A stretch of DNA of 64,000 bases from Pseudooceanicola atlanticus (GTDB taxonomy: Bacteria; Pseudomonadota; Alphaproteobacteria; Rhodobacterales; Rhodobacteraceae). This document shows positions 23,097 to 52,222 of the stretch, piece after piece; positions within the stretch are counted from its first letter, which is position 1; every line of letters begins with the position of its first letter. A program made the translations under genes and the position numbers. Under the pieces are notes generated by a model. That model did no database searches, had not been told where the DNA came from, and saw only the letters and a list, made by a program, of their open reading frames with translations. The stretch covers positions 62,001 through 126,000 of the forward strand of contig NZ_AQQX01000002.1 in the NCBI RefSeq assembly GCF_000768315.1, given 5' to 3'.

Positions 23097-23539
<443 letters not shown>

Positions 23540-23544
23540 TCATC

Positions 23545-23961
23545 ATGCGCCCGCATCCGACCACGCCGCCCCCCTTTCCCGATCCGCGCCGGCCCGATCC
23601 CTATCCCTGGCCGCGCCCGCCCGCCTGCCTGCCCGCCGCGCTGCTGGACCGGCCGCCGCAGGGCGCGCGCGTCGCCGTGGCCGGGCTGGTGATCCTGCGC
23701 CAGCGGCCGGGCACCGCCAAGGGGGTGATCTTCATCACGCTGGAGGACGAGACCGGGGTGGTGAACGTGATCGTCTGGCGCAAGCTCTATGAACAATTCC
23801 GCCGCGCCGTGATCTCGGGGCGGATGCTGCGGGTCACCGGGCGGCTGCAACGCGAGAACGAGGTGACCCATATCATCGCCGAACGGGTCGAGGATATCTC
23901 GCCCATGCTGGACGACCTGCTGCGCCCCGGCGGACCGGGCGACCGGATGCCCGCCGGCTGA
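23545..23961 (+). CDS. SOS-regulated OB-fold protein resembling the C-terminus of error-prone polymerase DnaE2
   Basis: A 138-residue protein with a Pro/Arg-rich first 40 residues, then a complete OB-fold strongly reminiscent of the C-terminal domain of DnaE2: VAGLVILRQRPGTAKGVIF, ITLEDETGVVNVIVW, LYEQFRR and a terminal VTHIIAERVED. DnaE2 is usually about 1000 residues; none of its PHP, palm or finger regions is present here. An exact LexA box lies 5 bases upstream of the ATG. Either a deletion has joined the SOS promoter of an imuAB-dnaE2 cassette to the polymerase's tail, or the domain has become an independent SOS protein. I cannot tell which. Confidence 0.7.
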   Translation: MRPHPTTPPPFPDPRRPDPYPWPRPPACLPAALLDRPPQGARVAVAGLVILRQRPGTAKGVIFITLEDETGVVNVIVWRKLYEQFRRAVISGRMLRVTGRLQRENEVTHIIAERVEDISPMLDDLLRPGGPGDRMPAG

Positions 23962-49518: not shown

Positions 49519-49551
49519 TTGCGCGGGACCAAACATGAACATATCATGAAC
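49519..49551 (+). promoter_or_regulatory. LexA box and promoter of the radical SAM-UdgX cassette
   Basis: GAAC (49537-49540), seven bases, GAAC (49548-49551): the reverse complement of the alphaproteobacterial LexA box GTTC-N7-GTTC. It overlaps a plausible promoter: -35 TTGCGC (49519-49524), 17-base spacer, -10 TATCAT (49542-49547). The predicted transcription start coincides with the ATG at 49554, so the mRNA would be leaderless. Architecture matches that at 23508-23539. Confidence 0.78.
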
Positions 49552-49553
49552 AT

Positions 49554-50780
49554 ATGCCCGGATTATCCCTTTCCCAGAAGCTCGCGATCCTGTCCGATGC
49601 CGCCAAATACGATGCCTCCTGCGCGTCGTCGGGGGGCGAGCGGCGGGATTCGCGGGATGGCAAGGGGCTGGGATCATCCGGCGGGTCGGGGATCTGCCAT
49701 GCCTATGCGCCGGACGGGCGCTGCATCAGCCTGCTCAAGATCCTGATGACGAATTTCTGCATCTTCGATTGCGCCTATTGCGTGAACCGGGTGTCGAGCC
49801 AGGTGGACCGCGCGCGATTCTCGGTCGAGGAGGTCGTCAAGCTGACGATCGAATTCTACCGGCGCAATTACATCGAGGGGCTGTTCCTGTCCTCGGGCAT
49901 CATCCGGTCGCCGGATGACACGATGGCCGACATGGTGCGTATCGCCCGCACCCTGCGCGAGCAGGAGAACTTTCGCGGCTATATCCACCTCAAGACCATC
50001 CCCGATGCCGCGCCCGAACTGATCGAGGAGGCGGGCAAATGGGCCGATCGCCTGTCGATCAACATCGAGATGCCGACCGAAACCGGACTGGCCAGGCTGG
50101 CCCCGGAAAAGGACGCCAAGGGCATTCGCAAGGCGATGGGCGAGGTCCGGCTGCGCCGCGAAGCCTCGCGCGAGGTGACCTATCGCGGCAAGCGCAAGGC
50201 GCGTTTCGCGCCGGCGGGGCAATCGACGCAGGTGATCGTTGGCGCGGACGGGGCCGATGACAAGGCGATCCTGTCGCAATCCTCGAACCTCTACGCCAAT
50301 TACGCGCTGTCCCGGGTCTATTACTCGGCCTTTTCGCCGATCCCGGATTCGTCGAAGGCCCTGCCGCTGATCCGTCCGCCGCTGCTGCGCGAACATCGGC
50401 TGTACCAGGCGGATTGGCTGCTGCGGTTCTACGGGTTCGACGTGAGCGAAGTGGCGTCCAAGGGCATGCTCGACCTGGATGTCGACCCCAAGCTGGCCTG
50501 GGCGCTGGACCATCGCGGCGCCTTTCCCGTCGACGTGAACCGGGCCGCGAAGGAAATGCTGCTGCGCGTGCCCGGTTTCGGGACCAAGACGGTGGGGCGG
50601 TTGCTGGCGGCACGGCGGCACCGGACCCTGCGTTACGAGGATCTCAAGGCCATGGGCGCGGTGATGAAACATGCCGCGCCCTTCATCACCGCCGCCGGCT
50701 GGTCGCCCCGGGGACTGACCGATGCCGAGGCCCTGCGCGCGCGCTTCGCCCCGCCGCCCGAACAGCTGAGCCTGTTCTGA
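49554..50780 (+). CDS. Putative DNA modification/repair radical SAM protein
   Basis: A 408-residue radical SAM enzyme. The 4Fe-4S-binding CX3CX2C is at C69, C73 and C76 (FCIFDCAYC); the N-terminus LSLSQKLAILSDAAKYDASC matches the family known to accompany UdgX. Near the C-terminus a helix-hairpin-helix-type segment (LLRVPGFGTKTVGRLLAARR) suggests direct DNA contact. It presumably uses a SAM radical to repair or modify a DNA base, though no reaction is established. The SOS LexA box lies 2 bases before the ATG, and the gene overlaps udgX (TGATG). Confidence 0.88.
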   Translation: MPGLSLSQKLAILSDAAKYDASCASSGGERRDSRDGKGLGSSGGSGICHAYAPDGRCISLLKILMTNFCIFDCAYCVNRVSSQVDRARFSVEEVVKLTIEFYRRNYIEGLFLSSGIIRSPDDTMADMVRIARTLREQENFRGYIHLKTIPDAAPELIEEAGKWADRLSINIEMPTETGLARLAPEKDAKGIRKAMGEVRLRREASREVTYRGKRKARFAPAGQSTQVIVGADGADDKAILSQSSNLYANYALSRVYYSAFSPIPDSSKALPLIRPPLLREHRLYQADWLLRFYGFDVSEVASKGMLDLDVDPKLAWALDHRGAFPVDVNRAAKEMLLRVPGFGTKTVGRLLAARRHRTLRYEDLKAMGAVMKHAAPFITAAGWSPRGLTDAEALRARFAPPPEQLSLF

Positions 50781-52222
50781 TGCGCGAGGTCGTCCTGCCC
50801 GAGGTCGGAAGAGTCGCCGCCTGGCGGAAAGAGGCGCGGGCGCTGGCCAGTCAAGGGATCCGGGCCGAGGATGTCGTCTGGCGCGTGGGCGCGGCGACGG
50901 GCGACCTGTTCGCCGGGGCTGCCCCGACCCCCGGCCCCAGGCGCGAGATCAGGGTATCGCGCAAGGCGCTGTCGACCATCGAAAGCGCGCTGCATCATTC
51001 CGATCCGGAACGCTTCGCCCGCGCCTATGCCGCCGTGCTGCGCCTGTCGGACCGGCAGGTCACCTGGGGCGACCGCTCCGATCCGATGATCCGGCGCATC
51101 CTGGCCGACGCCAAGGCGGTGGGGCGCGACGTTCACAAGATGCATGCCTTCGTGCGGTTCCGTGAACTGCCCTCGGACGGGGCGCGGCGGGCCTTTGGCG
51201 CGTGGTTCGAACCCGAACATCCGATTGTCGAGGCCGCGACCCCGTTCTTTGCCAAGCGGTTCGGCGACATGGACTGGGTGATCGCGACGCCGACGCTGAC
51301 CGCGCGGTTCACGGAGGCGGGGCTGAGCTTTTCACCCACCCCGCCCGACCAGCGCCCGCCCGAGGACGCGACAGAGGAATTGTGGCGCACCTATTACGCC
51401 TCGATCTTCAACCCGGCGCGGCTGATGGTCGGGGCGATGCAATCCGAGATGCCCAAGAAATACTGGAAGAACCTGCCGGAGGCCGCGCTGATCCCGGACC
51501 TGATCCGGGACGCACCGCGCCGCGCCGCCGAGATGCAGGCGGCCATGCCCACCGAACCGCCCGCGCGCCGGGCGATGGTGGCGCGGGCCATGGCGCGGCG
51601 CGAGGCCGTGGCGCCCCTGCCCGGATCGCTGGACGATCTGCGCGCGCAGGCGGCGGGCTGCACACGTTGTCCGTTGCACGGACCGGCGACGCAGGTCGTG
51701 TTTGGCGAAGGGCCGGTCGATTCGGATCTGATGATCGTCGGCGAGCAGCCCGGGGATCAGGAGGATCTGGCTGGGCGTCCCTTTGTCGGCCCTGCCGGTG
51801 CGGTTTTTGATGCCGAAGCCAATGCTGCAGGTCTCGACCGGTCGCGGGTCTACGTGACCAATGCGGTCAAGCATTTCAAATTCACCGCGCGGGGCAAGCG
51901 GCGCATCCACCAGCGCCCCGATGCCGGGGAGGTCGAACATTGCCGATGGTGGCTGGACCTGGAACGCCAGATGGTGGCCCCGAGGCTGATTGTTGCCATG
52001 GGGGCCACGGCCTGTGCGTCGCTGACCGGGTCGGGGGCGGGGCTGCTGAAACGGCGCGGCGGGATCGAGGCGGCAGCGGATGGCACGCCGGTCCTGGTGA
52101 CGATCCACCCCTCCTACATCCTGCGGGTGCCGGATCCGACCGCACAGGCGGAGGCGCGGGCGCAGTTGCGCAGTGACCTGGTGGCGGCGCGGGATTGGCT
52201 GGCGGCGCAGGCGCGCATGTGA
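50780..52222 (+). CDS. udgX: UdgX-family uracil-DNA binding protein fused to an N-terminal DUF4130 domain
   Basis: A 480-residue two-domain protein. The C-terminal half is UdgX: GEQPGDQEDLAGRPFVGPAG from about residue 321, cysteines C294 and C297 of the 4Fe-4S site (CTRCP), and the R-loop KRRIHQRPD with His377, the position that in Mycobacterium smegmatis UdgX (His109) forms a covalent bond to the uracil site in DNA. The N-terminal half (residues 1-260) is a DUF4130-type domain usually linked to it. So it likely traps uracil lesions after DNA damage. The ATG overlaps the radical SAM stop; both are under the LexA box. Confidence 0.9.
   Translation: MREVVLPEVGRVAAWRKEARALASQGIRAEDVVWRVGAATGDLFAGAAPTPGPRREIRVSRKALSTIESALHHSDPERFARAYAAVLRLSDRQVTWGDRSDPMIRRILADAKAVGRDVHKMHAFVRFRELPSDGARRAFGAWFEPEHPIVEAATPFFAKRFGDMDWVIATPTLTARFTEAGLSFSPTPPDQRPPEDATEELWRTYYASIFNPARLMVGAMQSEMPKKYWKNLPEAALIPDLIRDAPRRAAEMQAAMPTEPPARRAMVARAMARREAVAPLPGSLDDLRAQAAGCTRCPLHGPATQVVFGEGPVDSDLMIVGEQPGDQEDLAGRPFVGPAGAVFDAEANAAGLDRSRVYVTNAVKHFKFTARGKRRIHQRPDAGEVEHCRWWLDLERQMVAPRLIVAMGATACASLTGSGAGLLKRRGGIEAAADGTPVLVTIHPSYILRVPDPTAQAEARAQLRSDLVAARDWLAAQARM

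Follow-up and report, generated by a model that had tools for sequence, protein, structure and literature searches.

A two-gene cassette at positions 49,519 to 52,222 of a 64,000-nucleotide stretch of the Pseudooceanicola atlanticus genome (RefSeq assembly GCF_000768315.1, contig NZ_AQQX01000002.1, positions 62,001 to 126,000 of the forward strand; hereafter the window) is predicted to encode a DNA repair system that is switched on by damage. We consider it probable, at roughly 60%, that its first gene specifies a radical S-adenosylmethionine (SAM) repair enzyme tethered to the beta sliding clamp, with an obligate partner of the DUF4130 family and an optional uracil trap of the UdgX type; this estimate applies to the frame of the reading and not to the chemistry of the lesion. 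The cassette is an ordinary member of a known, uncharacterised SOS module made up of TIGR03916, TIGR03915 and TIGR03914, families that are already curated: all three domains score over their cut-offs, the radical SAM gene adjoins DUF4130, and we found no defining difference. As far as the literature searched reaches, what is new is the clamp motif, the leaderless-type operator, three additional conserved cysteines in the radical SAM protein, and the standing of DUF4130 as its constant partner. We know of no earlier clamp-tethered radical SAM DNA enzyme, and this one would be the first. The features are as follows.

49519-49524, + strand: -35-like element TTGCGC, 17 nucleotides ahead of the -10-like element (sequence; orthologous upstream regions)
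49537-49551, + strand: LexA operator GAACATATCATGAAC, exact GAACN7GAAC (pattern match; conserved in orthologous loci)
49542-49547, + strand: -10-like element TATCAT, within the operator and 6 nucleotides ahead of the ATG; putative leaderless-type promoter (sequence; orthologous upstream regions)
49554-50780, + strand: gene 1, radical SAM protein, 408 residues, TIGR03916 rSAM_link_UDG (582.3 bits, cut-off 343.5)
49620-49724, + strand: extra conserved C23, C48 and C57 (YDASC...GICH...RC), candidate second metal site (alignments)
49758-49781, + strand: CxxxCxxC radical SAM cluster motif, C69-C73-C76 (sequence and alignments)
50523-50693, + strand: helix-hairpin-helix-like region, residues 324-380 of gene 1 (weak profile matches)
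50763-50777, + strand: QLSLF, putative clamp-binding pentapeptide, residues 404-408 of gene 1 (clamp consensus; orthologue conservation)
50778-50782, + strand: stop/start overlap TGATG between genes 1 and 2 (sequence)
50780-52222, + strand: gene 2, DUF4130-UdgX fusion, 480 residues, starting inside the stop of gene 1
50807-51484, + strand: DUF4130 / TIGR03915 domain, residues 10-235 of gene 2 (174.7 bits, cut-off 112.25; Pfam DUF4130)
51488-52183, + strand: UdgX domain TIGR03914, residues 237-468 of gene 2 (319.2 bits, cut-off 189.95; UdgX structures)
51740-51754, + strand: UdgX motif A GEQPG, residues 321-325 of gene 2 (sequence; alignment)
51896-51910, + strand: R-loop KRRIH with His377, residues 373-377 of gene 2 (sequence; alignment)
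52106-52126, + strand: UdgX motif B HPSYILR, residues 443-449 of gene 2 (sequence; alignment)

Only the dinucleotide AT separates the end of the operator (49551) from the ATG at 49554, which bears out the initial annotation, where a LexA box 2 bases ahead of the ATG had been noted and SOS control proposed. A single exact match to GAACN7GAAC is by itself weak evidence for LexA control: three occur on the two strands of the window, against about 1.2 expected from base composition, and 130 occur genome-wide against 81 for the reversed pattern. The significance of this copy comes from its position and from its conservation across orthologous loci. Passages of PMC8565304 give the alphaproteobacterial LexA motif as the direct repeat GTTC-N7-GTTC, and a conserved repeat of the GAACN7GAAC type is what we found at the promoter. 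A search of 198 genomes of the host's bacterial family with TIGR03916 gave 38 matches, 36 of them over the cut-off, a patchy distribution (36/198). All 30 loci that were fetched carry an exact box (28 GAACN7GAAC, 2 GTTCN7GTTC) that begins no more than 51 nucleotides upstream of the TIGR03916 match; a first-order shuffle control gave a mean of 0.23 and a maximum of 2 (500 shuffles). Exact boxes of the GAACN7GAAC type also lie upstream of lexA and recA in the genome of the window. The 80 named loci were the best of 593 that had been confirmed; an exact direct repeat lies within 120 nucleotides in 74 of them and within 60 nucleotides in 70, compared with 1/80 for the reversed pattern.

Loci outside the Alphaproteobacteria were taken from 20 of the 29 Pseudomonadota genomes beyond that class that are over the cut-off, picked before their upstream regions were viewed. 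CTG-N10-CAG is present in 15 of these 20, in 13 as an exact CTGTN8ACAG within 60 nucleotides of the start, and the reversed eight-letter pattern is found in 0/20 over 110 nucleotides. The type of box tracks the local LexA specificity, which argues for SOS control and for which other explanations are hard to find. With the reservation that some sampled genomes are closely related and that locus counts are not independent events, we regard control of the cassette by LexA as strongly supported by these comparisons. The E. coli-type box was considered for the host and rejected; allowing one mismatch, CTGTN8ACAG occurs 5 times in the window against 11.3 expected, and never at gene 1. Separately, three loci (L120 from Xanthomonas dyei, L158 and L169 in our numbering) have in common an inverted repeat resembling GTCTCAT...ATGAGAC directly ahead of the radical SAM gene, and neither of the two LexA-type repeats was found in their upstream regions. 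The inverted repeat is possibly a site for another regulator or for another type of LexA.

The operator overlaps a promoter-like arrangement (TTGCGC, 17 nucleotides, TATCAT, 6 nucleotides, ATG) whose spacing recurs among relatives. In a sample of 92 distinct upstream regions with an unambiguous ATG, drawn from 134 located loci, TAnnnT stands at a 6-nucleotide gap before the ATG in 27 and at any other gap in 4 at most. TTG at the 17-nucleotide spacing was seen in 33 of the 92, compared with 0, 1, 11 and 10 at spacings of 15, 16, 18 and 19 nucleotides, and a Shine-Dalgarno core in 9. This geometry points to a transcript without a leader, which LexA would repress by occupying the -10 element.

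The radical SAM protein terminates in ...PPPEQLSLF, with QLSLF as its last five residues. Clamp motifs are of more than one length, hexapeptides being a known class. Passages of PMC12309361 give the clamp-binding consensus as QL[S/D]LF, more generally QxxLF, report a C-terminal QLSLF in PolC, and use the hexapeptide QLSLPL; in an excerpt of PMC4549789, QLSLF serves as the full clamp consensus. The C-terminal pentapeptide of PolC is thus the same as ours, in a polymerase rather than a radical SAM enzyme, and a clamp role for the latter is predicted from its sequence. We looked for the motif in 155 distinct orthologues (L001-L137 and L154-L173, the frameshifted L073 lying outside the set). A loose form occurs in the last 14 residues of every one, 143 times as a pentapeptide and 12 times as a hexapeptide, an interchange that is consistent with clamp motifs. 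The strict form Q[LM]xL[FL] was found in 116/155 orthologues and in 0/2016 background sequences, which were mechanical open-reading-frame ends from the same loci, many of them not genes. Among 52 aligned sequences Q404 is invariant and L407 is 96% conserved, behind a variable tail, and the motif, of the QL[S/D]LF type, falls in the low-confidence tail of the structural model, consistent with an exposed place. Beyond the Pseudomonadota, one record each from Phocaeicola (QLILEF), Fusobacterium (QLKLF) and Gemmatirosa (QLSLW) carries it, the last about 21 residues ahead of the end of the frame. A conserved clamp tail leads us to expect action at replication forks. Literature searches linking radical SAM with a clamp-binding motif found nothing, and those linking it with the sliding clamp returned no paper on TIGR03916 by title.

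The identification of gene 1 as a radical SAM gene, made in the initial annotation, was confirmed by a TIGR03916 score above the curated cut-off and by C69-C73-C76; Pfam Radical_SAM matches residues 64-195. The three further cysteines, C23, C48 and C57, equal C69, C73 and C76 in their invariance across alignments of 12 and of 52 sequences, and the six-cysteine pattern recurs in 57/57 and 78/80 loci (135/137). The exceptions are L073, which is frameshifted, and L116, in which the spacing is shorter and the cysteines are retained. On this pattern a second iron-sulfur cluster at C23/C48/C57 is possible. In L073 (Alloyangia mangrovi) the radical SAM frame is broken after about 230 residues and the LexA box and DUF4130-UdgX gene are intact; the break is either a sequencing error or the mark of a pseudogene.

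An AlphaFold2 model of the radical SAM protein has a mean predicted local distance difference test score (pLDDT) of 83.7, with residues 26-50 and 53-55 under 50. Foldseek matched it to the barrels of MgmA, HydG, HydE, BioB and ThiH (E from 1.6e-6, query template modeling (TM) score 0.31-0.44). RimO, MiaB and LIAS also appear among the matches listed, 50 of 74 at E 0.001. Extra cysteines ahead of CxxxCxxC are a trait of auxiliary-cluster radical SAM enzymes, and this likeness, together with the three folds just named, lends some weight to the idea that the cassette modifies DNA and does not repair it, dual-cluster chemistry of the kind used by lipoyl synthase and methylthiotransferases adding a group to bases during the SOS response. 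We judge this quite improbable: any radical SAM barrel would be expected to give such fold matches, and the cysteine region has no confident model.

Spore photoproduct lyase (SPL) is a radical SAM enzyme that acts on DNA, and the protein of gene 1 could, in the same manner, directly reverse thymine lesions caused by UV, leaving DUF4130 and UdgX as accessories. Passages of PMC3765255 call DUF4130-linked radical SAM proteins SplB-like and propose that they might modify thymines, and those of PMC8565304 place SplB in an SOS context. The combination of a radical SAM domain, SOS control and a helix-hairpin-helix-like region would suit a direct-reversal enzyme; this region is suggestive, with Pfam HHH_3 below its cut-off and ComEA and RuvA profiles at E 0.02-0.14. 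The gene 1 product differs from SplB, however, in its top folds, in its clamp motif and in its three extra cysteines, which to our knowledge are not part of SPL. No SPL family is among its NCBIfam matches at E 0.01, nor is there an SPL structure among the 50 Foldseek hits listed, out of 74 at E 0.001. Membership of the SPL family was therefore not supported, and we consider direct reversal of this kind unlikely.

The composition of the module was assessed in 398 Pseudomonadota genomes, one per species, of which 84 have TIGR03916, 87 TIGR03915 and 78 TIGR03914 over the cut-off. DUF4130 is present in 84/84 radical SAM genomes, against 18 expected. UdgX, in contrast, is over the cut-off nowhere in 21/84. 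Conversely, UdgX occurs in 15 genomes from which the radical SAM gene is missing, and 13 of those lack DUF4130 as well. Pairs that stand without UdgX retain their SOS boxes (L154, L155, L159 and L160 are examples). DUF4130 lies downstream on the same strand in 80/80 named loci, its estimated start within 50 nucleotides in 69, and in the window the two genes overlap; UdgX is fused to it in 74/80. Radical SAM and DUF4130 are an invariant pair, and UdgX is an optional add-on that is common in alphaproteobacteria. With no UdgX over the cut-off in 21/84 genomes, the right question is what the radical SAM protein and DUF4130 do jointly; by asking why UdgX is paired with a radical SAM enzyme, the initial annotation had put the weight on the optional part. 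The sole 3/87 DUF4130 genomes without the radical SAM gene (G393, G409 and G478) belong to one genus; two of them have UdgX over the cut-off, and the DUF4130 gene of G393 is near a contig end.

These counts also bear on a pathway of covalent uracil capture, in which UdgX would do the main work, its crosslink to DNA being processed or resolved by the radical SAM protein and DUF4130. It draws support from the fusion in 74/80 named loci, from the near-constant crosslinking histidine (74/75, below), and from passages of PMC10359453, where proteases or RecA-dependent pathways are expected to resolve UdgX-DNA complexes. We nonetheless hold it to be rather improbable, as the pair is kept without UdgX, SOS boxes included, and UdgX is found without the radical SAM gene and mostly without DUF4130.

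The DUF4130 model (residues 1-265) reaches a mean pLDDT of 90.1. Many of its top fold rows, all weak (E 7e-3 and worse, TM score at most 0.31), are by name DHH-type phosphoesterases: family II pyrophosphatases, PAP phosphatase, DHH domain, CDC45, RecJ and NrnA. Family II pyrophosphatases, PAP phosphatase, CDC45, RecJ and NrnA presumably form one DHH superfamily, and the likeness may be treated as a lead. A search of solved chains with the DUF4130 sequence profile gave one match, at E 0.17. The cross-phyla DUF4130 alignment took in an unrelated helicase-like open reading frame (the second L147 row), and its invariant positions were left unused.

The second half of gene 2 has the features of UdgX. 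Both domains of the predicted DUF4130-UdgX fusion score over their cut-offs, and solved UdgX structures match with E values down to 1.5e-45 (Mycobacterium smegmatis UdgX). Like that protein (PDB 6AIL, 6IOD; passages of PMC10359453), the domain has GEQPG, KRRIH with its histidine, and HPS..LR; here, by contrast, it is fused behind DUF4130 and accompanied by a radical SAM partner, the matched UdgX-type chains being 205-229 residues long. In an alignment of 75 UdgX domains GEQPG is present in 72, HPS in 70 and R449 in 73. The histidine named as the crosslinking residue in the initial annotation, His377, is indeed that of KRRIH and is conserved in 74/75. The exception, L081 (Acetobacter nitrogenifigens), has proline in its place and a low UdgX score of 137, and this domain may be decaying. 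The 4Fe-4S cysteines assigned earlier are conserved in part: gene 2 has cysteines at 294, 297, 388 and 412, the first three each conserved in 68/75, and column 412 is alanine in 46/75. His365 of NAVKHF could be the fourth ligand of a putative cluster.

We take COG4277, the radical SAM gene of PMC8565304, to be the same family as TIGR03916; the UDG of that paper is COG1573. Its passages count an operon of COG1573 and COG4277 among the predicted members of the SOS network in Bacteroidetes and cite SOS control of a uracil-DNA glycosylase (UDG)-based system in Verrucomicrobia and Alphaproteobacteria, and those of PMC3828012 predict LexA control of the radical SAM operon CAC3343-CAC3344 of Clostridium acetobutylicum. 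These related operons share predicted SOS control with the cassette. In passages of PMC3765255, the sole paper on DUF4130 that was found, this domain is connected with UDGs and with SplB-like radical SAM proteins, and a family member is raised upon desiccation in Acinetobacter according to an excerpt of PMC13130816. The pair and its SOS control were thus in print, in passages of PMC3765255, PMC8565304 and PMC3828012, for other groups. Passages from the UdgX literature (PMC10359453, PMC10776899) were also consulted, and no paper joining UdgX with radical SAM was found. The clamp motif, the six-cysteine pattern and the leaderless-type operator are absent from the literature passages on related cassettes.

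In the reading we favour, cleavage of LexA upon DNA damage would give rise to a leaderless-type transcript of the two-gene operon. The radical SAM enzyme, with its helix-hairpin-helix-like region, would dock on the beta sliding clamp through the C-terminal QLSLF and so work at or just behind replication forks, where it would most likely reverse or process a fork-stalling base lesion. The DUF4130 protein, made from the overlapping start, would be its obligate pair and would recognise the lesion or complete the reaction. UdgX, fused to DUF4130 here and in most alphaproteobacterial relatives examined, would excise uracil and trap the site via His377, uracils in damaged DNA being held covalently instead of being left as free abasic sites. 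A role in DNA repair, as first proposed, is likely. As a whole the initial annotation is partly supported; the clamp motif, the three extra radical SAM cysteines and the leaderless-type promoter were missing from it.

Several observations weigh against this reading. No experiment on the radical SAM-DUF4130 pair was found in the literature searched, nor any substrate, reaction or phenotype. Binding to the beta clamp is predicted from a five-residue motif, and its loose form also ends 24/2016 of the background open reading frames. DNA as the substrate is suggested by the company of genes and by a sub-threshold helix-hairpin-helix match. The geometry of the model is silent on a second cluster, because confidence around the N-terminal cysteines is poor (pLDDT below 50 at residues 26-50 and 53-55). 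For DUF4130, Foldseek searches of PDB and BFVD gave no match at E 0.001 or better (best 7e-3), which makes its role a guess. With 21/84 genomes lacking UdgX over the cut-off, trapping of uracil is not central to the module. As to control, 6/80 named loci (L077, L085, L120, L127, L133 and L135) have no exact direct repeat within 120 nucleotides, and the 4 of 74 boxes beyond 60 nucleotides may be chance matches; inspection by eye shows a one-mismatch copy at L077, L085 and L127, and L120 (Xanthomonas) and L133 (Acidovorax), both without a box, lie outside the alphaproteobacteria. CTG-N10-CAG was not found in 5/20 loci outside that class.

A more ambitious claim, that the module is a widespread SOS repair system of new chemistry with a two-cluster radical SAM enzyme on the clamp, DUF4130 acting either as a novel enzyme or to read the lesion, and UdgX covalently marking uracils, is tentative, and we would put it at somewhat below even odds. 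Roughly one in five of the sampled Pseudomonadota genomes carries the pair (84/398), with apparent SOS control that spans two LexA specificities or more, and the favoured reading, if true, would reveal an overlooked fork-associated radical repair step in bacteria. The clamp tail makes the function of an uncharacterised family testable through a one-residue handle, and the contrast between invariant DUF4130 and optional UdgX is a guide to which genes deserve priority.

The chromosomal neighbours of the cassette encode EF-P, CobQ, a YgfZ-type protein and a 279-residue open reading frame without an assignment. They are unrelated to it, and neighbourhood was rejected as a clue to function. A part in anti-phage defence was likewise not supported, neither protein having a PADLOC match at E 0.1. 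On plasmids, the radical SAM gene occurs in 158/72,556 records, 58 of them from Phaeobacter and 142 predicted to be non-mobilizable; Phaeobacter inhibens is a species with plasmid copies, and Caulobacter vibrioides is another carrier of the family. A relative was found in 10/50,697 phage records and at 2 IMG/VR loci. One contig labelled Bacteriophage sp. (L147) has a helicase-like open reading frame downstream of the radical SAM-DUF4130 pair, and the pair, whole or in part, is also present on several gut contigs with a phage label; these gut contigs may be bacterial DNA.

Elsewhere in the window, an exact GAACN7GAAC at 23525-23539 on the minus strand lies beside a 138-residue open reading frame at 23545-23958 on the plus strand (L148; G000:C12, about 550 kb). 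The match of this frame is confined to the C-terminus (942-1039 of 1047) of the error-prone DNA polymerase PRK05672. A 905-residue frame elsewhere on the same contig resembles error-prone DNA polymerase and seems to stop short, and an error-prone DNA polymerase gene may have been split by rearrangement.

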